The notes under the pieces were generated by a model, which searched no databases, was not told where the DNA came from, and worked only from the letters and a program-made list of their open reading frames with translations. The position numbers were made by a program, and so were the translations under genes. From the NCBI GenBank assembly GCA_000992445.2, contig LBUF02000001.1, positions 30,393 through 94,392 on the forward strand: 64,000 nt of DNA, in the 5' to 3' direction. The DNA comes from Parcubacteria group bacterium GW2011_GWA2_38_13b (lineage in GTDB: Bacteria; Patescibacteriota; Minisyncoccia; GWA2-38-13b). This document shows, in pieces, positions 38,273 to 61,131 of the stretch (position 1 is the first letter of the stretch; each line of letters starts with the position of its first letter).

Positions 38273-38300
38273 CAGCGCAGACAAAAATAAGTGATTTTTT

Positions 38301-38367
38301 TCACGCCATCGCTTTTTTGAGTTTCATAAGCGCAATGATCGTTCCGCGCTCCCGTTCGCTTATTTTT
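38301..38367 (-). pseudogene. Duplicated 3' end fragment of V-ATPase subunit D gene
   Basis: 67 bp matching 39721-39787 with 3 differences; encodes the same ISERERGTIIALMKLKKAMA* end. Confidence 0.88.
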
Positions 38368-39073: not shown

Positions 39074-39279
39074 CTTGATTTAACAATAATTTTTTTTAAT
39101 AGCTTTTTGTTGTAAAAATTGAAAGCCCATTTTACCTCTTTGTCGTTGCCGAAATCCAAAATTCGCTCAATAATATATTGAGCATGTTTTTTCGTATTTA
39201 TGTTTTTTGGGTTTGTATCCCAAAACAGGGATTGTCGGAATTTTACCCCGTTAGAAATTTTTCGTCTTGGATTATTCAT
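39016..39279 (-). CDS. Putative antitoxin partner (DUF6922-like)
   Basis: SLFWDTNPKNINTKKHAQYIIERILDFGNDKEVKWAFNFYNKKLLKKIIVKSRCLRPETKNLWTLLL; overlaps the AbiEii gene. Confidence 0.75.
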   Translation of the reverse strand: MNNPRRKISNGVKFRQSLFWDTNPKNINTKKHAQYIIERILDFGNDKEVKWAFNFYNKKLLKKIIVKSRCLRPETKNLWTLLLSENK

Positions 39280-39326
39280 TTTTTATTTAGATGTCCCACG
39301 TTTGAATTTATAATTTCTAACGGGGT
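39245..39326. repeat. MITE-like repeat with 15 bp perfect TIR ACCCCGTTAGAAATT
   Basis: ACCCCGTTAGAAATT (39245-39259) and AATTTCTAACGGGGT (39312-39326); related TIR at 61027-61131. Confidence 0.65.
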
Positions 39327-39698: not shown

Positions 39699-39720
39699 GC
39701 CGCATATATATTATTTTTTT

Positions 39721-40365
39721 TCACGCCATCGCTTTTTTGAGTTTCATCAGCGCGATGATCGTTCCGCGTTCCCGTTCGCTTATTTTTGATTCAATGTATT
39801 TTACGGTTTCTTGGGTTCTCGGTATAAGAACATATTCCAGCGCGTTGACGCGGCGGCGGGTTTTTTCTATTTCCTGGCTTAATAATTTTGCCGTATGCTC
39901 AAGCTCGGCGAGTTTAAGTAAATCATTAAAAACTTCCTGAAACGCCAAAATGGAAATATCAAGATCGTGAGTTGTAGAAATCAAACTATACGAAAAATGC
40001 GCTCCGTTTCCGTTATTATTTTCTTCCGGCATTATTTCCTGCCGAAACTGAAATGTCGCGACGCCCATTATATTTTTTTTAACCAGCCGGATATTTAAAT
40101 CTTTTGTTTTTGTCTTAAAAATCGGTTTGATTTTTTCGGTTCCCTGTAGAGCGGAAGCGAAAAGGAAGTGCTTAAAAGTTATTTGAATTTCTCGTTCAAC
40201 TTTTTCGCGAAGTTTTATGACTTCCCGCGTAATCCCCATAAATTCTTTCATCAATCCGTCCCGTTTGTCTTCAAGCAGTTTATGCCCACGCTGAGCGAAT
40301 TTCAGTTTTTTCTTTAACGTAAGAAGCTCCTGGCGAGTTGGATTAACATTTAATAAATTGGCCAA
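39721..40365 (-). CDS. ntpD: V-type ATP synthase subunit D
   Basis: NVNPTRQELLTLKKKLKFAQRGHKLLEDKRDGLM...RRVNALEYVLIPRTQETVKYI. Confidence 0.92.
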   Translation of the reverse strand: MANLLNVNPTRQELLTLKKKLKFAQRGHKLLEDKRDGLMKEFMGITREVIKLREKVEREIQITFKHFLFASALQGTEKIKPIFKTKTKDLNIRLVKKNIMGVATFQFRQEIMPEENNNGNGAHFSYSLISTTHDLDISILAFQEVFNDLLKLAELEHTAKLLSQEIEKTRRRVNALEYVLIPRTQETVKYIESKISERERGTIIALMKLKKAMA

Positions 40366-50315: not shown

Positions 50316-50325
50316 TTACAAAACA

Positions 50326-50358
50326 AATCCCGTTGAAGCATAAGCTCAACGGGATTTT
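50326..50358 (+). terminator. Hairpin terminator
   Basis: AAATCCCGTTGAaGC-ataa-GCtCAACGGGATTT + T-run. Confidence 0.75.
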
Positions 50359-50372
50359 TAATTTATTCAATC

Positions 50373-50762
50373 TTAATTATGCGGCACTGACCATCTATGC
50401 GGAATACCGCTTGGCGTATGACAGATACCGCATTTATCCGTCATGTGGTTCAGACGGTCTTTATGGCATTTTATACATTTCTCTTTTGGCACTTCCGCGG
50501 GACGGCTCACGAATCTCGGGTCCAAAAATACGGTTTTGCCGATTCTTCTCATCTTGCCCATTATCGTATCCTTGTGGCAATCCACGCATTTGGCTTTTCC
50601 GTAATGCGCTGACTTTACAAACCCGACAACGGCCGGCTCCATTATATGGCAACCTCCGCACATTAACGGATTTTCCGAAACATAGTTCAATGCCTTGGGA
50701 ACAATAAACAGACCGGCGGCAAAACTAATTATTACCAAAAATGCAATAACTATTTTCCCCAT
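50373..50762 (-). CDS. Membrane-anchored tetraheme c-type cytochrome (NapC/NirT/NrfH-like)
   Basis: N-terminal TM and CGGCH, CVDCH, CIKCH, CGICH. Confidence 0.88.
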   Translation of the reverse strand: MGKIVIAFLVIISFAAGLFIVPKALNYVSENPLMCGGCHIMEPAVVGFVKSAHYGKAKCVDCHKDTIMGKMRRIGKTVFLDPRFVSRPAEVPKEKCIKCHKDRLNHMTDKCGICHTPSGIPHRWSVPHN

Positions 50763-50764
50763 AA

Positions 50765-51742
50765 TCAATCTCCCGGATGACAAATTATGCAACTCGGTAT
50801 TCCGCCTTCTTTGGCTCTTTTTGCAATTTCATAAGGATATTTTCCTAACCTGCCTTCGGATTTATGTTCAATGGCATGCATTGCTTCTTCGTCTCGGCGC
50901 ACATGGCATCGCGAACATACAAATTTATTTGGATCCTTAATGTCAGGATGCTGGACATCGTGCATTCCTTGCGGCATATGACAAGTAACACAAACCGGAG
51001 TATGAGCGTTTTCTTCAAAATTCTTCTGCCAGTTCTCTGAAGAACCGTTCCATTGCCATTTATTGCCTTCCGATTTATAAGTCAACCCGTGGCGCGTATT
51101 ATTCAAGTATTTTTCCATCTGCGGATGCCGATTACCGGAATGACATTTTCCGCAAGCTTCGGGTCTGCGCGCTTCTTCCAAAGAAAATTTATGCATCACA
51201 TGGCATGTGTTGCATTTAAATTCTATTTGATGGCAAGACGCGCAATCTTTTTTTATATTGATAAACTTTCCGTCTTTATCAAGGTTGATATGATTTTGAA
51301 GCCCGCTATTCCATGCTTTTCCATGTTTGCTTTTAATAAATTCATCATTTTGTTTTTTATGACACTTTGCGCAAACTCTCGGCGGGACAACATTAATAAC
51401 ATTTTTCATATCGCATTTTGAATCATCAATTCCCCTGATTTTCGCGACTTCCGCAATCTCTCCCCTGATTGTTTCGTCAATGTTAATATGACACTCATCA
51501 CAACCAACTCCCTTAAAAGCATGCTTGCTCTGACGCCAATTCTGAAAAACAAACGGGGTATATTTTTGCTCGTGGCAATCAAGACAAACTTTCATTCCCT
51601 CGGTTATCACTACTCTTTCTTCGGGATCAGCAAGACGATGAAACGTTTCTGATTGCCAACAAATATAAAAAACAGCGCCAAACATCGCCATCAAAAAGAC
51701 AGCGAGAATATAATATCTTTTTTCCATTTTCACCCCCTCCAT
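50765..51742 (-). CDS. Nine-heme c-type cytochrome, membrane anchored or exported
   Basis: CLDCH, CDECH, CAKCH, CASCH, CNTCH, CGKCH, CVTCH, CSRCH, CIICH; N-terminal TM. Confidence 0.92.
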   Translation of the reverse strand: MEGVKMEKRYYILAVFLMAMFGAVFYICWQSETFHRLADPEERVVITEGMKVCLDCHEQKYTPFVFQNWRQSKHAFKGVGCDECHINIDETIRGEIAEVAKIRGIDDSKCDMKNVINVVPPRVCAKCHKKQNDEFIKSKHGKAWNSGLQNHINLDKDGKFINIKKDCASCHQIEFKCNTCHVMHKFSLEEARRPEACGKCHSGNRHPQMEKYLNNTRHGLTYKSEGNKWQWNGSSENWQKNFEENAHTPVCVTCHMPQGMHDVQHPDIKDPNKFVCSRCHVRRDEEAMHAIEHKSEGRLGKYPYEIAKRAKEGGIPSCIICHPGD

Positions 51743-51795
51743 TTTTCTTTAAAAATTAAAGTTGAAAACGAAGAATTTTTAACTAGAAAAATGAG

Positions 51796-51909
51796 AGCCC
51801 CGTACCAATTCAACAACCTTACCTTACATAATCTACGAATAAAGCCGTTAGGCGATTCGCTCTCAAATTTTCATCTACAATTTACTTGCCCCGAAATTGG
51901 TATGGGGCT
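51796..51909. promoter_or_regulatory. Structured intergenic region between cytochrome b and nine-heme cytochrome genes
   Basis: AGCCCCGTACCAATT (51796-51810) / AATTGGTATGGGGCT (51895-51909), 14/15; overlapping GAGAGC/GCTCTC pair. Confidence 0.4.
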
Positions 51910-51921
51910 TTATCCTTTTCG

Positions 51922-52980
51922 TTAAACCAGCGCCTCTAAAACCGTAAATAGCATACAAACTACCATCAAAATTGTCCCGCATGTAAAAGCGATAATGCGA
52001 ACAACGTTGAGAGGAATAAACATTTCCATAATGGTCTGAATGAAAGGCCACAAAGTCATTACCGCGAAAATTCCCATTGTTGACAAAATACCGACTTGAA
52101 ACGGCACAAGTTTCAAAAAATGAAACATTGGAAAAAAATACCATTCCGGCTTAATGTGTTCAGGGGTTAAAAACGGATTTGCCGGTTCTCCTAATGTTGG
52201 CGGAAAAAAATAAACTATCGCGACAAAAGAGAAAACCAATACCCAAAGAATTTTATATTCATTAAAGATATGGTTCGGCACTAATGAATAATAACTTTTT
52301 TCTGTTCTACCAGTATAAGAAATACCATGTTCTCTTGCCAATAAAAGATGCGCCATTATCAATGGCGTTAAAACCAATAATGGTAAAATCATCACATGCA
52401 AAAGGAAAAATCTCGGCATTGTGTACAAATTTATCTCCGTACCGCCAAGCATCAATCGCTTTATGAACGGTCCAATAACAGGGGTCGCGGCGGCAATATT
52501 AGTTCCAACCTGCGTTGCCCAATAACTTAATTGGTCTCCGACTAACGCATAGCCAGTGAACCCTAAACCCAAAGTCGTGAAAAAAAGCAACATTCCGCAA
52601 ACCCAGATAAGTTCCCGCGGCCTACGATACGACTCGGTGAAAAACACGCGCAACATATGTAAAAATAAGCTTACAATCATAATGTTCGCGCCGAGCTGAT
52701 GGACTCCACGAATATAATTTAAAACCGGAAATTCATAAGTAATATTCCGGATTGAAATATATGTAGCCGATAATCCATTAGCCAATTCTCCGGAATAATT
52801 CATATAATAAGCGCCAAGAATAAGTCCGGTCACGAACTGGATAAAAAAACAAATCATCGGAATTCCGCCGAGCGCGAAAAAAAATTCACGTGCCAAAGCC
52901 GTCGGCACTTTTTCGTCAATCTTGTCTTTTAATTCTCCCGGGGTTATGCCGATTCGCTCTTTTAAAAAATTCCTAATCAT
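51922..52980 (-). CDS. Cytochrome b of a bc-type complex (full-length)
   Basis: Histidine-bearing helices GVHQLGANIMIVSLFLHMLRVFF and MPRFFLLHVMILPLLVLTPLIMAHLLL; PEWYFFP Qo motif. Confidence 0.94.
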   Translation of the reverse strand: MIRNFLKERIGITPGELKDKIDEKVPTALAREFFFALGGIPMICFFIQFVTGLILGAYYMNYSGELANGLSATYISIRNITYEFPVLNYIRGVHQLGANIMIVSLFLHMLRVFFTESYRRPRELIWVCGMLLFFTTLGLGFTGYALVGDQLSYWATQVGTNIAAATPVIGPFIKRLMLGGTEINLYTMPRFFLLHVMILPLLVLTPLIMAHLLLAREHGISYTGRTEKSYYSLVPNHIFNEYKILWVLVFSFVAIVYFFPPTLGEPANPFLTPEHIKPEWYFFPMFHFLKLVPFQVGILSTMGIFAVMTLWPFIQTIMEMFIPLNVVRIIAFTCGTILMVVCMLFTVLEALV

Positions 52981-53495
52981 AACCCCTCCCCTCTAAAATA
53001 TTGCTCAGGTTGCCATGTCGGTTCCCTAAAGCTTATATAAACCAATCCATCTTTTATTTCTACAGGGTATTGATCCAGTGACTTTTCCGGCGGTCCGCTT
53101 TCTACGCTCCCGTCAGCCGCGAAAACCGCGGTATGACACGGACAAAGAAATTTACCCCGCTCTTTTTCCCAAAAAACCTGACATCCCAAATGAGTGCAAA
53201 CCAAAGAAAATGCCTGAATATTTCCGCCATTATTAATTAAAATGGCTTTTCTATTATTCGCTTTATCTTCAAAAATAATTGAAGCCCCAACTTGATTTAT
53301 TTCCGTTATTGGCGCCGCGTAAACTTTACGGTAAACATACGGCTCCCCAAACCATCCCGAAGGCATTAACGATTTAAGTAATTGACTCGCTATCGCCCCG
53401 GTAGCTCCGGCGCTTATAATCAAACCAAAGCCAACCAAGATTCGTTGAAAAAATCCGCGCCTCGTAATGCCTTTTTCCTCTGATTTATTTTCCAA
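52977..53495 (-). CDS. Rieske [2Fe-2S] protein
   Basis: CTHLGCQVFWEKERGKFLCPCHTAVF; N-terminal twin-Arg-like TRRGFFQ then TM; overlaps cytochrome b start. Confidence 0.94.
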   Translation of the reverse strand: MENKSEEKGITRRGFFQRILVGFGLIISAGATGAIASQLLKSLMPSGWFGEPYVYRKVYAAPITEINQVGASIIFEDKANNRKAILINNGGNIQAFSLVCTHLGCQVFWEKERGKFLCPCHTAVFAADGSVESGPPEKSLDQYPVEIKDGLVYISFREPTWQPEQYFRGEGL

Positions 53496-53606
53496 ATTTC
53501 ACCCCTTTTTTGAAATTTTCAAGGAAACAAATTCAATATATTGTATTATATGACCGAAAAAATGTCAATTATTTTGCTTTAATTTTAACTGAAATTACGA
53601 CAAAAT

Positions 53607-53640
53607 TAAAAGCGGGCAAATTATCTTGCCCGCCTGCTAA
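53607..53640. terminator. Hairpin terminator
   Basis: GCGGGCAA-attatc-TTGCCCGC. Confidence 0.65.
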
Positions 53641-53665
53641 ATTTTAATATGCTTCCTCCACTGTA

Positions 53666-54340
53666 TTACTGCAAAGTCAACGACAACCACTTTCCACTAT
53701 GGCACTTTCCACATATAATGCCGCCATAACCAGGACCGGCATCATCTTCCCATGGGAATGTTAGAAATTCACCGTACGGACCCTTGTCCCCACGATGGAT
53801 ATAACCATGGCATGTCGCGCATGCCATAACATTTTTATTAACTCCGTCAAAATAGAAATCTGCCTGCATTTCTGCAAGTGTCGTCATCACATCTTGCAGA
53901 ACTACCGGTGTCCTTGTCGCCCTTTGACTAATTAAAGAAGCCGTAATCTCCATACCGATTGGATGGCCATAATGGCCATTGTGGTCCACGAATACATAAC
54001 TCATTGATGCATGCGTTTTCCAGTTTGATCCGCCGTGACATTTTAAACACACCCTACTACTCGGTGTATTATAAATTGACGGCGTTGATAAAAGCGTCCA
54101 TGAACTATAATTCTGCCAATCCGTTGTTACATCAAGTTCATCCGATCCGATGTACAACCATGGGGAACCAGGAAAAATTATTTTAGAGTCTTGATTCCCG
54201 CTGTGTTCAACATTATGACATTCCCCGCATACTGTAGGGTTGTGCGTTGCGGAGTAATTATGCCCCGCTATAACCGAAGAACTGACCATAAATCCGGCAA
54301 ATGCCAATATAAACATCGTCAACATTGCTTTTCTAAACAT
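53666..54340 (-). CDS. Exported tetraheme c-type cytochrome
   Basis: Signal peptide; CGECH, CLKCH, CATCH, CGKCH. Confidence 0.9.
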   Translation of the reverse strand: MFRKAMLTMFILAFAGFMVSSSVIAGHNYSATHNPTVCGECHNVEHSGNQDSKIIFPGSPWLYIGSDELDVTTDWQNYSSWTLLSTPSIYNTPSSRVCLKCHGGSNWKTHASMSYVFVDHNGHYGHPIGMEITASLISQRATRTPVVLQDVMTTLAEMQADFYFDGVNKNVMACATCHGYIHRGDKGPYGEFLTFPWEDDAGPGYGGIICGKCHSGKWLSLTLQ

Positions 54341-54457
54341 ACTCTTTTTGCCTCCTTCCTGCTCTGCAAATTTTCAAAAAACCAAATCACAATGTCCTTA
54401 ATGCCATCTTATCATTGGTCAAAAATTTGTCAAGTATTCGGTCACTTTTTATAGTCG

Positions 54458-55864
54458 CTATTTGCCACTTAACTGTCCGTAGGCAAAAACCATCACCTTG
54501 CCGTGATCAATAATTTTCCCTGCCACTTTTTCCGTTCCACCGCCCTGACAAATAATCCAAACCAGATATTCAACTTTAAAATCAGGTGAAACAAATTGCC
54601 CAAAATGTTCAATATTCGCTTCAATAGTATCAATGACAATCTTATACGGCCTAACCATATTGGGCATCTTCCCGCCGACCAAATCATTTTTTACGGATTC
54701 GCCGCCCCAAACGGAATGTGGCAAGCAAGCCAAATTTCCCAATGCCTTTTCTTTCCCCCATTTCATTTGGGAGAAAAATTTTATGTACGGCCGCGATTTA
54801 ATGTCAACCGCTCCCTTGGTTATTCCTTTCATTGTAATACCCGCGTCCAACGCGTATATATCCCCGTTGGGCGCGATAGCGATATCCACGACTTCCTCAA
54901 AACAAACAAGATCCGTCCCACGAATTCCGTATTGATCCAAAAATTTTCCGGCAGGATCAAACTTTAAAATACGGGCGCCGCGCTCTTCGGAAATATAAAT
55001 ATTCCCATTACTATCAACATCAACATCAGACGGCTGACACAATAAGACATCTTCACTTTTTTTCTTCTTTTCGTGATCCGCCTTAATCGCTTCGGCGGAA
55101 AACGGCACGGGGTTTTGGATGCCCTTTTTTGCCAGAATTTTTTCATCACCGGTTTCTATGAATTTTTTCCATATATTTTCCGGCATCCCGATAACGGATA
55201 AAACTTCCCCCGTTTCTTTATTCAAAACAAAAACGCTTTCCGGAGAGTCCTGATTCAGGTTCCGTTGAAGTCCGGTATCAACGACATACAATTTCTCACC
55301 GCTAACCTTTATTCTCATAGGGGTGAAAACGCAATCAATTTTTCTTTCCAAATTAAACTCCAAGTCAAAAACCATAATTTCTTGCCGCGCCGGATAGGAT
55401 AAATAAATCAACTTACCATCCGTATCCATTCCGTAAGCGCCATCAAAATTATCATCCTTAAACCCTTTTATTTCCCGCAGTTCCGGCTTCTTGCCGCCGA
55501 AATCATAAACCCAAACACTTTTACGTTCTTGATCCAAAATAAAAGTTTTGCCCTCAATTACGGCAATATCTATTGGCGTATCAATGCATGGATCCAGCTC
55601 CTGCTTTTCGCCCAATAGAACATCAAGCCATTTTCCTTTTACTGCAGCAAACTGAGAGCGCCCCAATAACTCATAAAGGAGTTGCCAATTCTGCTCTTTG
55701 TTTATCGGCGAATTCCTGCTCTTTTGTTTATGAGGATAAAATTGGTATTCCGTTTGCTTAACAACTTCCTCCTTTTTCTTGCCAAAACTATCGGAAGTGT
55801 TAACTGCCGACATTATAAAAAATGCCGACAAAAAAATCAAAATCATTCTTTTTATCACAATCAT
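54458..55864 (-). CDS. Exported NHL-repeat/beta-propeller-like protein
   Basis: Signal peptide; repeats such as PSDVDVDSNGNIYISEERGARILKFDPAGKFLDQYG and VDIAIAPNGDIYALDAG. Confidence 0.8.
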   Translation of the reverse strand: MIVIKRMILIFLSAFFIMSAVNTSDSFGKKKEEVVKQTEYQFYPHKQKSRNSPINKEQNWQLLYELLGRSQFAAVKGKWLDVLLGEKQELDPCIDTPIDIAVIEGKTFILDQERKSVWVYDFGGKKPELREIKGFKDDNFDGAYGMDTDGKLIYLSYPARQEIMVFDLEFNLERKIDCVFTPMRIKVSGEKLYVVDTGLQRNLNQDSPESVFVLNKETGEVLSVIGMPENIWKKFIETGDEKILAKKGIQNPVPFSAEAIKADHEKKKKSEDVLLCQPSDVDVDSNGNIYISEERGARILKFDPAGKFLDQYGIRGTDLVCFEEVVDIAIAPNGDIYALDAGITMKGITKGAVDIKSRPYIKFFSQMKWGKEKALGNLACLPHSVWGGESVKNDLVGGKMPNMVRPYKIVIDTIEANIEHFGQFVSPDFKVEYLVWIICQGGGTEKVAGKIIDHGKVMVFAYGQLSGK

Positions 55865-55894
55865 TACCGTTCTCCTTTCTAATTAAACGCGCTG

Positions 55895-58003
55895 TCAAAA
55901 TTTTCTGGAAATATAAAATTTTACCAATAGTCCGTCATTTTCCGTTGATCTGGCGCCCGTAACATATTCTTCAAATGCCTGACGGGCAAAAAGATCAACT
56001 GTCCATCTTCTGAGTTTATAGGACACGCCATTAAAAAGGGACAAAACTTTTCTATCAGTATCTCCTATGGCAGACGCGTCGTAAGACACTCCGGAAGCAA
56101 CCTTCATTTTACGCGTTTCATATAAAACATTAAAAGCGTTGCTTAAAAGAGTATAATCATTGCCTGATTCTTTGTTATATTTTATGGAAGTCCTGTTGTT
56201 AGACAACGATACTTTCAACCCTTCTATGAATGGCAACGGAACCGATAAGGAGGATTTAAAAGTCAACCTTTGAAAAGGATAAAGCTCTTGCGTATTTTCT
56301 TCCAGTTCAATACTTGATTCTCTCTCAATATTCCACCATTGCTCAAAAATGTTTCGCGATCTAATCCCAATAATATAACTCGCTCCAGGGTTCAAGAATA
56401 TATTTTCTTCAGTTAAACCAATCGGACCGTTCGCTTCCTGATTAAGGATAAAAAAACGAACATACGGTTCCATCAAACCGTCTAACAAACTAACTCCCAA
56501 AGAAACGGTATGGCTTGACTCAATAATATCGCCAAGCGGATTTTTATTTTTATAATCCACGAATACCGCCTCTCCATTCAATATACTTGTCCCAACAATT
56601 CTTTCTATGTAAGTTTTCGGTCCCGCCCGATAAACGCGATAATCTATCCCTTCTAAATAATGCACTACTCCAGAAAGATCAAAAACTTCAACGGATTCAA
56701 TTTGGACATTCTCATATTTTAAAGCTATCGGAGAATATCCTGAAAGAATGCGCGATTCGCCTTTTATAAAAGATTCGCCATCTCCCGATCTCGCGATATC
56801 ATTAAACTCAAAAGCATATCCGCTGGAAAATTTACCTCTCCACGGTATTACTTTCGTGTAATCGGTTTTTCCCCTGATGCCCGTAAGCAATGACTCATAG
56901 TTGGACAAAGAAAGTTTTGATAAAATTCCTTCCAACTCACTAGACAAGCTTGTCCCTAATTGATGAGAAAAACCGATTCTAATTTCCATCAAATTCTCTT
57001 CCGTCTGAAAAAAACCAGACTCATTTTGCTCCTTATCGTTGACGTTACTATAATCTCTGGTTATTCTCTCAACATCAAATTTCAAAAATGCGTCAAGCGT
57101 CTGAAGTTTGTCTTGTAAAATCCAATAATTTACATCCTGCCCAAACTTCATATTCAAATACTCATTAATGCCACTCTGCGAATTTAAGCTTACCCTGGTT
57201 TTTGTCCGCAAGTTATCATCCAAAAATTTCCCGAAAAGAGATCCGTGAGAATATGAATTTAAAGACTGCGCTTCATAACCTTCGCCGCCAAAAACAAATT
57301 CTCTCTCGTATTGAGTAATTCCGGAACTGAAATTAAGCTTAAATATATCCCATTCTTTCTTAGTGTCAGCTTCAAATGTTTTCCACCCTTCTTTGAAAAA
57401 AGAATTAAACTCATTGAACATATTTTCCGATTCCCTGCTGGAATATTTGAAATTGAAATTTATGGGCCACCCCATCACTTCCTCGCCCATCCGAAAACCG
57501 GCTCCAGCCCTAAACATATCCATAAGATATATTGAAGAAGGCGTATGCTCATATTCCTTGTACTGCTTTTCCGTAAAGAAAGAACCGGAATAGGGAGTGC
57601 CGCTTAAAAATTCCCCGCGGAATTTATAATCAGTCAAAAGTCCCTTACTCGGATAATCAGCTCCTCCTTGTTCAAAAACAACGCCAAAACCAAAATTAAG
57701 TTTCAAGAATCTCGGACGAAGAATAAACATATTGTCTTCAATCCTTAATTCTTCGGTAAAAAACCTATAACGGCTTTCTCCATCTTTGCCGTCATAAGAA
57801 CTCTGACGCGATTCTTCCATGAAACGAAAACCGAATTCACCAGTCGGCCGCTCAAAGAAAAGGAAATTATTGTAATCCCATATCGGATGCATTTCTTCCG
57901 CATAAACAATACTGCGGGAAAAACAAAACAAAACGATAAATCCAACTAAAAACAGCAGTTTCTTGATCATTTCATTCCCCTTTATATTATATTTTGTTTT
58001 CAA
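55895..58003 (-). CDS. Predicted outer-membrane beta-barrel (porin-like) protein
   Basis: Signal peptide MIKKLLFLVGFIVLFCFSRSIVYA; alternating amphipathic strands throughout; C-terminal LLVKFYISRKF (terminal aromatic signature). Confidence 0.75.
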   Translation of the reverse strand: MKTKYNIKGNEMIKKLLFLVGFIVLFCFSRSIVYAEEMHPIWDYNNFLFFERPTGEFGFRFMEESRQSSYDGKDGESRYRFFTEELRIEDNMFILRPRFLKLNFGFGVVFEQGGADYPSKGLLTDYKFRGEFLSGTPYSGSFFTEKQYKEYEHTPSSIYLMDMFRAGAGFRMGEEVMGWPINFNFKYSSRESENMFNEFNSFFKEGWKTFEADTKKEWDIFKLNFSSGITQYEREFVFGGEGYEAQSLNSYSHGSLFGKFLDDNLRTKTRVSLNSQSGINEYLNMKFGQDVNYWILQDKLQTLDAFLKFDVERITRDYSNVNDKEQNESGFFQTEENLMEIRIGFSHQLGTSLSSELEGILSKLSLSNYESLLTGIRGKTDYTKVIPWRGKFSSGYAFEFNDIARSGDGESFIKGESRILSGYSPIALKYENVQIESVEVFDLSGVVHYLEGIDYRVYRAGPKTYIERIVGTSILNGEAVFVDYKNKNPLGDIIESSHTVSLGVSLLDGLMEPYVRFFILNQEANGPIGLTEENIFLNPGASYIIGIRSRNIFEQWWNIERESSIELEENTQELYPFQRLTFKSSLSVPLPFIEGLKVSLSNNRTSIKYNKESGNDYTLLSNAFNVLYETRKMKVASGVSYDASAIGDTDRKVLSLFNGVSYKLRRWTVDLFARQAFEEYVTGARSTENDGLLVKFYISRKF

Positions 58004-58202
58004 AATAACTATCTGTAAGATTTACAGATTCTGAAATAAATTCGAAATAATATTTATTTAATTTGAACTTATTTCAAAATCCTTATTACGCTATTTTTCT
58101 AAACTTTCTTGCCCGCCGTATCCGCCAGCTGACGGAGGAGGTGGGTTTCAAAATCTATTTTTCGCGAGATAGAGTTGGACCCTACCTCGCGAATTTTTAT
58201 TT

Positions 58203-59189
58203 TTACTTTTTGCCGTGTATAACTGCCTTATGACAGGAAATACATAACGGCATTTTATACATCGATGTCAAAAAATCTTTTTTAGGATTATCCGGTTTAA
58301 TGGATTCGGGACCGTGACACTCGAGACAAACCTTCGTCACGCCGCCTTCAATCAAGATATTGCTTCCATCTCCGGAAAAATTATGACACTTCTTGCATTC
58401 CGGCTTTTCAAAAGGAGGATGCTTGCGCCATCTGGCATAATCTTTGGCAATTTCATTCTGACTTACTTGCGTATCTCCTTTTTCCAAATGCTTCATATGA
58501 ATGTCTTTTTTGTGGCACATCACGCATTTTGGCATCCCGTACATCATTTTTAAATCCATTTTCAGATTTTTCTTTTCCGGATCATATTTATGACACTGCG
58601 TACAAACTTCTTTTTCCGGCGCTTTCAAAAGATGGTCTTCGTCGCTGGAATGCGGATTATGGCAGGTAACGCACGCGCCAATCTCCGATCCCTTGCCCTG
58701 AATAAATTTGGAACGATTGCTAAATTCCGGATGGCACACTAAACAAATGCCAACCGCCCGTTCTCTCATTAAAGCTTTCTCTTTGGATTGATGAGGCGTA
58801 TGGCATATATCACATTTGCCTAAAAATACCGGCAAATTAACTCCCTTCTTTTGATAATCGTTTTTTTTGTGGCACTTAAAACAAAGCGTATCAATCCGAC
58901 CGGATGCCAACGCGGAAATCGCGCCGCCTTCTCCGTCATGACAAACAACGCATTCCCCATTTTCCCATGGCGAATGTTTGCTCTGCCATTTCGCCGCTTC
59001 CGTTTTTTTTACTTCCTCGACTATTTCACTCATACTTCTTTTGGAAACCGGATTTTTATCGACCGTCAATTCTACCTCGCTCGGCACACCATCAATAAAA
59101 AACCTTAAACATCCTTTCTTTTCAATCTGTCGGCAACCAAAAGAACCGAGCAGAATGAAAATAACGAACAACTGCAATATTCTGCTCAT
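58203..59189 (-). CDS. Decaheme c-type cytochrome, putative lipoprotein
   Basis: Signal with LLGSFGC lipobox-like end; CVVCH, CFKCH, CDICH, CLVCH, CVTCH, CTQCH, CVMCH, CKKCH, CLECH, CISCH. Confidence 0.92.
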   Translation of the reverse strand: MSRILQLFVIFILLGSFGCRQIEKKGCLRFFIDGVPSEVELTVDKNPVSKRSMSEIVEEVKKTEAAKWQSKHSPWENGECVVCHDGEGGAISALASGRIDTLCFKCHKKNDYQKKGVNLPVFLGKCDICHTPHQSKEKALMRERAVGICLVCHPEFSNRSKFIQGKGSEIGACVTCHNPHSSDEDHLLKAPEKEVCTQCHKYDPEKKNLKMDLKMMYGMPKCVMCHKKDIHMKHLEKGDTQVSQNEIAKDYARWRKHPPFEKPECKKCHNFSGDGSNILIEGGVTKVCLECHGPESIKPDNPKKDFLTSMYKMPLCISCHKAVIHGKK

Positions 59190-59361
59190 AACCCCCCCCT
59201 TTTTTTTTGAATACTTGAATAATCGAAAAAATAAATAATCAAAGAACTTTTAACATTACATATTATCTTATAATACAAGTTTTGTCAAGAAAATTTGACT
59301 AATTTTCCGTCATTTTTTTGATACATAAAAAGGCGTAATTTTCATTACGCCCGTTCATTCC

Positions 59362-60066
59362 TTAATCTGCCCCGAAAAATTTCATTCTTCCCGCCATAAT
59401 ATCTGTTAGATCTTCCGTTTTTCCCTTATCACAATACAGAATTTCTATTTTTTGCGAAATTTTCTTCCCGTCGGGAGAAAATTCTGTAATGCCCAACACA
59501 ATACCGTATTTTCCTCGAACGATTTCGGAACTAATAATTTTTATTTTCCGATAAAAATCTTCGGTTAATCCCGCCCTCTTCTTGCCAATATCCGCTCCAA
59601 TGTCCTTGTTGAGCGCCGTCAATTCTTTTCTTTTGGCAATTACATTCTGATCGGAATCAATAATGCCATGGTACTTACCGTAAGCATCTGTTAATTCCTT
59701 GCTAGACATTAATTCCTGAAATTTAGTTTCAACAGCCTTAATTTCTTCAGTGTTACCGCCACCCCTTATTTTTTCCGTGTTTTCCCACGCCTCCAAAAGC
59801 GGTTTGATTTTTTCTTTTAATTCCGCAGCTTCAAGAGTATTGCGCGCTTCCCCTTCTGCTTTCTTTAATTCTTCTTGTAAAACCGCAAAACCCTTTTCTT
59901 CGGCAAGTTTTTTACCATAATCAACAATCTGTTGATTTATAGCATCTAGTCCGGCTTCGTTCATATTTACAAGGCCAATCTTCATCTTTTCGTGTCCTTC
60001 GCATCCGACAAAAACTGTAATCAATATAAAAAATGTCGCTAAAATCGCCATTATTTTCATATTCAA
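59362..60066 (-). CDS. Putative Skp/OmpH-like periplasmic chaperone lipoprotein
   Basis: FVGCEGHEKMKIGLVNMNEAG...helical middle...GKYGIVLGITEF...IEILYCDKGKTEDLTDIMAGRMK. Confidence 0.55.
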   Translation of the reverse strand: MNMKIMAILATFFILITVFVGCEGHEKMKIGLVNMNEAGLDAINQQIVDYGKKLAEEKGFAVLQEELKKAEGEARNTLEAAELKEKIKPLLEAWENTEKIRGGGNTEEIKAVETKFQELMSSKELTDAYGKYHGIIDSDQNVIAKRKELTALNKDIGADIGKKRAGLTEDFYRKIKIISSEIVRGKYGIVLGITEFSPDGKKISQKIEILYCDKGKTEDLTDIMAGRMKFFGAD

Positions 60067-60078
60067 TCCCTTTCTATA

Positions 60079-60939
60079 TTATTCGCTTAATTTGTATAAA
60101 TTATATCCGGAATCGGCTATAAATTCGGCAAAATCATTATGAACCCGAACGATGACTTTACTTCGAATGTCCTGCAATTTTTTCAAAATAATATCATTTT
60201 TTTTCTGATTTTTTATCTTTTCAAAAAGCTCATCCTGTCCCTTGCTAAAATCTTCGTAATATTTTTTTATTTCGGCAGGAATGACTTGCGCTTTTCCTTC
60301 CGCCACCTTTGATATTTCCTCAAAAGCTCTTTTTGCGAAAGCGCGTTGTAAAAATCGCTTTTCAACATACGAAAAATCCATCCCCAACTCTTCGGTTGCA
60401 GTCAGGATTATTTTTCGGACATCTTTTTTCCGCGCAGAACAACTTTCATCGGGAAAAAATAGCTCAACGAGAAGAAAATCCTTCCAATTCTCGATAAGTT
60501 TCTTCAAATCATTTCCGTCTCCCTCGCCGATTTTGCCCAATGCTATGATTTTTTTAAAAAAATCATCCATATGTCCGGACCAAATATACAACACATCTCC
60601 GAATTCACCACCAACCCATTCATCCCGTTTTTCCACCCATAAACCGAAATTTCGGTTTATGGAAGAAATATTTTTCTCCAATTCTTCCAAACCGACTTTA
60701 GCCAACAATATTTCGTCAATAAAACTTTCCAAATCATTCCTACTCCTGAATCCCTTAAAAAGCGGCGGCAAACAATCAACTTCCCGGAATTTCTCCTCTG
60801 CCTTTAAATCAAATGATTTTATAATTTCTTTGTTATTTATTTCAACCACAATACAGTCAACAATCGTTGCTGATCCGACCAATCTTGCGGGAATAATAAT
60901 GACAGCGCATAAAATCAAAAAAGCGATAAAATTTTTCAT
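60079..60939 (-). CDS. Putative SurA N-terminal domain-like exported protein
   Basis: Signal peptide; ATIVDCIVVEINNKEIIKSFDLKAEEKF near N-term, IPAEIKKYYEDFSKG and LQDIRSKVIVRV near C-term. Confidence 0.55.
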   Translation of the reverse strand: MKNFIAFLILCAVIIIPARLVGSATIVDCIVVEINNKEIIKSFDLKAEEKFREVDCLPPLFKGFRSRNDLESFIDEILLAKVGLEELEKNISSINRNFGLWVEKRDEWVGGEFGDVLYIWSGHMDDFFKKIIALGKIGEGDGNDLKKLIENWKDFLLVELFFPDESCSARKKDVRKIILTATEELGMDFSYVEKRFLQRAFAKRAFEEISKVAEGKAQVIPAEIKKYYEDFSKGQDELFEKIKNQKKNDIILKKLQDIRSKVIVRVHNDFAEFIADSGYNLYKLSE

Positions 60940-61026
60940 TTAATTCCTCCTATTTATTTAATTTTCGTATTTCAAAAAACTTCTATTTTTAACTATTTAT
61001 TATAATTGAAGATTAGGAAAAAGTCA

Positions 61027-61131
61027 ACCCAGTTAGAAGTTTTTGACTATTTTTTCGGTAATACATATTTATAACTATTCGATTTGTAAAATAATTTTGT
61101 ATAATATTTTTTTGAAAACTTCTAACGGGGT
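61027..61131. repeat. MITE-like repeat with ACCC(A/C)GTTAGAAGTTTT TIR
   Basis: 61027-61043 vs 61115-61131 inverted, one mismatch; possible 4 bp TCAA duplication. Confidence 0.6.

Follow-up and report, generated by a model that had tools for sequence, protein, structure and literature searches.

In the present study, we analysed a window of 64,000 nucleotides (G000:C1:30393-94392) on a 180,918-bp contig of a Parcubacteria group genome, in which ten intact ORFs, all read leftward on the minus strand, fill positions 50373-60939 (Table 1). This island encodes a cytochrome b, a Rieske protein, four multihaem cytochromes c, an NHL-repeat protein, a probable barrel, and two secreted proteins, and the CXXCH motifs of the four cytochromes c number 4, 9, 4, and 10 when counted from the 50373 side. 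Pfam matches were obtained for the cytochrome b (PF00033/PF13631/PF00032), the Rieske protein (PF00355), and the multihaem cytochromes c, and Pfam and NCBIfam together assign the cytochrome b, the Rieske protein, an NrfH/NapC-like tetrahaem, an HAO-related multihaem, the NHL protein, and a doubled-CXXCH cytochrome. The sequence-only reading of this DNA had claimed the presence of respiratory and outer-membrane genes; the respiratory part is borne out by the Pfam matches and CXXCH counts, while the outer-membrane part stays at the level of a probable assignment, given that the 702-aa protein had no family match and no Omp85 was detected.

Table 1. Features of the island and its edges. Positions are those of the window; G009 is a second genome of the same class.
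Feature	Position	Strand	Remarks
Bidirectional-terminator-like palindrome CCCGTTGA..TCAACGGG and T run	50316..50372	.	gap between convergent NhaD and island
Tetrahaem NrfH/NapC-like membrane-anchored cytochrome c, 139 aa, 4 CXXCH	50373..50792	-	TIGR03153 9e-16, under cut-off
Nonahaem cytochrome related to HAO N-terminal half, 325 aa, 9 CXXCH	50765..51742	-	'HAO' of Castelle et al. (2017)
Cytochrome b, b6 and subunit-IV fused type, 352 aa	51922..52980	-	four conserved His (94, 108, 195, 211), PEWY motif
Rieske [2Fe-2S] protein, 172 aa	52977..53495	-	RR Tat-like N-terminus, CTHLGC/CPCH motifs
Secreted tetrahaem cytochrome c, 224 aa	53666..54340	-	52% identical to G009 protein
Secreted NHL-repeat/beta-propeller protein, 468 aa	54458..55864	-	47% identical to G009 protein
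Probable outer-membrane beta-barrel, MtrB-sized, 702 aa, likely start 57970	55895..58003	-	signal peptide; 39% identical to G009 protein
Decahaem lipoprotein, MtrA/DmsE-like, 328 aa, 10 CXXCH, lipobox LLGSFGC	58203..59189	-	39% identical to 7-haem lipoprotein of G009
Small helical lipoprotein, 234 aa	59362..60066	-	Skp/OmpH-like by eye only
Secreted helical protein, 286 aa	60079..60939	-	SurA-N-like by eye only
Genome-wide inverted-repeat element (CCCAGTTAGAA...TTCTAACGGGG)	61028..61130	.	island right edge

The island is flanked by V/A-ATPase genes and NhaD on the left and by an M1/M28 peptidase gene on the right, as had been described earlier. The left edge was an ordinary terminator-like gap and the right edge a single copy of a genome-wide repeat. 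The motif CCC[A/C]GTTAGAA, previously noted on both sides of the island, was indeed located at 39246/39315 and 61028/61120 (4 observed vs 0.04 expected). Across the genome, nine contigs, among them the 16S contig C11, carry 22 copies in total against 0 for the reversed control, so that the motif marks the genome and not the island. In the inverted-repeat elements at 39246-39325 and 61028-61130, the arms (ACCCCGTTAGAA...TTCTAACGGGGT) are conserved, whereas the AT-rich interiors of ~50-90 bp are unrelated to one another. A MITE acting as mobiliser of the island was rejected, since the arms are kept and the interiors are not, and an element spread over the whole genome has no link to the island. 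A 73-nt stretch also occurs at both 38295-38367 and 39715-39787 with 96% identity, at the 3' end of a V-ATPase D-like gene and the end of a nucleotidyltransferase-like gene, respectively, and we read it as a recent partial duplication.

Regarding the Rieske/cytochrome b unit, the cytochrome b has the four haem-ligand histidines and a PEWY-type Qo motif, and a Rieske gene with CTHLGC/CPCH motifs adjoins it. His 94, 108, 195, and 211 as well as KPEWY were invariant across 5 sequences, and the second histidine pair has one residue more in between than in the Omnitrophota sequences. The cytochrome b and its counterparts in Omnitrophota and Poribacteria share 40% identity, and the gene order of Rieske, cytochrome b, and HAO-related multihaem cytochrome is common to the island and the loci of both groups. 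Neither group was accepted as a recent donor, in view of this identity of only 40% and a GC content of 53-66% at their loci. Uniqueness of the cytochrome b within the class was ruled out by the 14 of 383 class genomes that encode some cytochrome b, all remote from that of the island. In G261, cytochrome b matches on contigs C7 and C9 carry 5 and 8 in-frame TGA codons, respectively, and look like mitochondrial contamination of that genome.

In the surface half of the island, the decahaem lipoprotein matched TIGR03508 (MtrA/DmsE family) at 2.8e-27 and 95.8 bits, under the cut-off of 192.2, and chain 6r2q_A at 1e-12, or at 2e-15 with a two-sequence profile. This chain is a 333-aa multihaem protein, though its PDB label reads 'Cystathionine beta-synthase', and we take 6R2Q to be the MtrCAB complex. 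The decahaem gene adjoins the 702-aa ORF, the product of which, with its signal peptide, Cys-free mature part, 15% aromatic residues, and terminal Phe, is compatible with a barrel. The porins of MtrAB/Pcc conduits are outer-membrane beta-barrels of 18-28 strands. Searches of Pfam, NCBIfam, and the PDB returned no family or sequence match for the 702-aa protein, its single-sequence AlphaFold model gave a pLDDT of 29 and no usable fold, and its strand amphipathicity was weak (z 1.8 and 1.4). Judged from its sequence, this protein is a probable outer-membrane beta-barrel. Its identification as MtrB by profile comparison with the MtrB-like ORF of another genome, G272, was dropped because no match was obtained. 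In G272 itself, the start of a Patescibacteria contig (C9, L059:203-3243) holds a separate decahaem gene of the DmsE/MtrA type with a 669-aa MtrB-like neighbour, a pair that could be a mis-join. SurA and Skp identities for the last two island genes were also discarded, with no family match for these genes and low model confidence for the 286-aa protein, and both products are kept as unassigned secreted proteins of helical type. The module composed of the tetrahaem, NHL, barrel, and decahaem proteins looks like an Mtr/Pcc-type electron conduit because the decahaem lipoprotein resembles MtrA/DmsE.

The host genome (G000) comprises 874,952 bp in 21 contigs, with a completeness of 94.95% and contamination of 0.15%, and a search for relatives returned 92 other genomes of 0.5-1.2 Mb, all of the same class as the host, in which small genomes of 0.4-1.2 Mb are numerous. 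Its 16S gene spans 2,012 bp against a 1,533-position model, which leaves ~480 extra bases, and inserted stretches are seen in the sequence. The contig encodes GyrA, LeuS, DnaX, MraY, and ScpAB, with LeuS at the edge of the window (about 4-912) and running on into the contig. The host thus shows the small genome, small-genome class, and 16S insertions of Patescibacteria (CPR), and the 875-kb genome, its class, the expanded 16S, the housekeeping genes on the contig, and the repeats common to the 16S contig support the earlier view that the chromosome is Patescibacteria-like; the phylum name follows from the match to a published genome (PMC5220378). In the usual model, Patescibacteria are fermenting epibionts with a single membrane.

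A respiratory chain of this kind has been published. Castelle et al. (2017; PMC5220378) described 'Candidatus Parcunitrobacter nitroensis' (0.884 Mb, 37.8% GC), with a single scaffold, the assembly of which was checked by paired reads, encoding a V/A-ATPase, a 9-haem 'HAO', PetAB, SDH/FRD, a 3b hydrogenase, gyrA, one decahaem cytochrome, and two tetrahaem cytochromes; ribosomal proteins L30 and L1 were reported as absent. The present contig resembles that scaffold in carrying the ATPase together with PetAB, a fumarate reductase, a fumarase, two hydrogenases, and gyrA, and the two genomes also agree in GC content, nearly in size, and in their cytochromes of 9, 10, 4, and 4 haems. The host is very probably 'Candidatus Parcunitrobacter nitroensis' or an extremely close genome. 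Genes for a malic enzyme and HydE/HydG-like radical enzymes also occur on the contig beside those for the fumarate reductase and fumarase, and both hydrogenases are of the NiFe type (L036:2719-17099, L034:11253-13167). The respiratory finding is, therefore, already known and represents a published exception to the fermenting, single-membrane model. In the portions of the same report covered here (PMC5220378), the surface half appears as cytochromes only, with no mention of the barrel/outer-membrane or NHL genes of the cluster, of cytochrome c maturation, or of the module in another Patescibacterium. No Mtr-type conduit in Patescibacteria was found in the titles, abstracts, and passages covered of the open-licence literature, which is weak evidence of novelty. 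The present analysis adds to that report a conduit-like module with a second case of it, and the observation that the machinery for its assembly is missing.

The second occurrence was found by a class-wide search of 383 genomes for the decahaem family, which led to G009, a member of another order than the host and the sole genome of that order in the set. In G009, genes for a tetrahaem, a 7-haem lipoprotein, a probable barrel, and an NHL protein lie together and adjoin LeuS, with HisS, LepB, and MurD nearby. The module proteins of the two genomes are 39-52% identical (Table 1), near or somewhat under the values for LeuS (54-57%) and for LeuS, HisS, and LepB together (52-57%). No cytochrome b of the island type was detected in G009 in the search of the 383 class genomes. 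In a phylum-wide sample of 379 genomes, no further case of the barrel turned up; this sample was evidently without G009, so that rare cases can escape it.

Proteins for haem attachment and barrel assembly were sought in both genomes. In a profile search, PF01578 (CcsA/CcmC/CcmF) was absent from G000 and G009, and neither has a recognisable haem-handling protein of the CcsA/CcmC/CcmF type; this family exceeded the cut-off in only 1 of the 383 class genomes, and the control was positive in 9 of 14 genomes. Omp85 (PF01103) was absent from G000, G009 was listed without a match, and the family was detected in 3 of 353 genomes, all in one family of the class. Omp85 domains lie in ORFs of about 1000-1136 aa in G194, G286, and G293. 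The BAM machinery of MtrAB/Pcc hosts was, thus, not found in G000 or G009, which are 94-95% complete, and lipid A/LPS genes were not found in 'Candidatus Parcunitrobacter nitroensis' according to its published account (PMC5220378). The absent 5-6% of each genome could hide one gene; a loss of the same kind in both by chance is unlikely. The missing machinery may reflect proteins too divergent to be detected, a route not yet described, provision by a partner cell, or a module that does not function.

Non-function would follow if the genes were an inherited relic or dormant cargo, with cytochromes and a barrel that are no longer, or never were, matured because the cell is without machinery for haem attachment and barrel insertion. 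The failure to detect PF01578 and Omp85 in G000 and G009 speaks for this explanation; however, no ORF of the block is broken, no CXXCH motif has been lost, and the retention of half of the block in G009 at 39-52% identity implies selection, and we regard a relic as unlikely. A further explanation, an assembly or binning chimera in which the block would derive from a different low-GC bacterium of the same groundwater, could draw on the missing maturation genes, the repeat element at the right edge, and a tetranucleotide distance of 0.156 for the island, the largest among the tested segments (host 0.086-0.150). The TETRA correlation of the island falls inside the host range and its GC content of 0.389 matches that of host segments (0.357-0.400), whereas the Omnitrophota and Poribacteria relatives differ in GC content as well as in their cytochrome b. 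The terminator-like gap on the left is ordinary, the paired-read check of the scaffold has been published (PMC5220378), and the presence of the module in a second Patescibacterium beside its own LeuS argues against a chimera. With the genome-wide repeats added to these points, the earlier expectation that the contig is not a simple chimera was upheld, and a chimeric origin is very improbable.

Another interpretation takes up the proposal of Castelle et al. (2017; PMC5220378), who put forward nitrogen-based respiration conditionally and regarded the 9-haem protein as a putative HAO; this nonahaem protein would then act as a hydroxylamine oxidoreductase that feeds both a bc1-type chain and an NO reductase, and the surface genes would be incidental. 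Besides that proposal, matches of the nonahaem protein to solved chains of the HAO family (6h5l, 3e-21; 1fgj, 5e-15) are consistent with this interpretation. However, the alignment ends at approximately residue 287 of 517 or 316 of 546 in the solved chains, namely, in the N-terminal half, and the 325-aa protein is not a full-length octahaem HAO. The C-terminal part of HAO, which is missing here, carries the catalytic cross-linking tyrosine. The nonahaem protein also holds the position of a Rieske/cytochrome b partner, as in Omnitrophota and Poribacteria. Because only the N-terminal half of HAO is matched and this gene order is shared, we tentatively assign the nonahaem protein to the Rieske/cytochrome b complex as a subunit, comparable to the HAO-like subunit of Kuste4569-4574 in Kuenenia (PMC12954380), and do not regard it as a hydroxylamine-oxidising enzyme; we consider the hydroxylamine oxidoreductase proposal to be quite unlikely.

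We favour, with modest confidence, the interpretation that the island is native to a Patescibacterium and encodes two linked electron-transfer units, one for the oxidation of quinol and the other for the subsequent export of electrons through the envelope. The Rieske/cytochrome b complex, the NrfH-like tetrahaem, and the HAO-related nonahaem would oxidise quinol, and the tetrahaem, NHL propeller, barrel, and MtrA-like decahaem would form a surface module that would carry electrons across the envelope to an acceptor outside the cell or to a partner cell. We infer the fold of the barrel candidate and the direction of electron flow, as well as the maturation and working state of the island proteins. 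A broader proposition, which we hold tentatively and with considerable doubt, is that certain Patescibacteria that have neither LPS nor BAM assemble an MtrAB-like surface conduit with ~27 c-type haems through unrecognised haem attachment and barrel insertion, and thereby respire outward or exchange electrons directly with a host cell. With a conduit-like module present in a second order, it becomes testable whether the envelope of these cells breaks the rule or whether electrons are exchanged directly with partner cells. The concrete gap is that 27 haem motifs are encoded without a recognised haem-attachment system, and that a related module occurs in a second near-complete genome that is likewise without it.

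In comparison with the MtrAB/MtoAB/PioAB and Pcc conduits, the island resembles them in encoding an MtrA/DmsE-like decahaem beside a secreted, Cys-free protein of ~700 aa ending in Phe. It differs in that its decahaem is a lipoprotein under the DmsE family cut-off, its barrel candidate matches none of the known MtrB families, NHL and tetrahaem partners are added, and the host is without Omp85 or LPS genes. Regarding the other unit, the island has a fused cytochrome b/subunit IV and a short HAO-related protein, and no NAD(P) oxidoreductase subunit, in contrast to Kuste4569-4574 of Kuenenia (PMC12954380), but both systems encode a b6-type cytochrome b, a Rieske protein, and an HAO-related multihaem cytochrome together.
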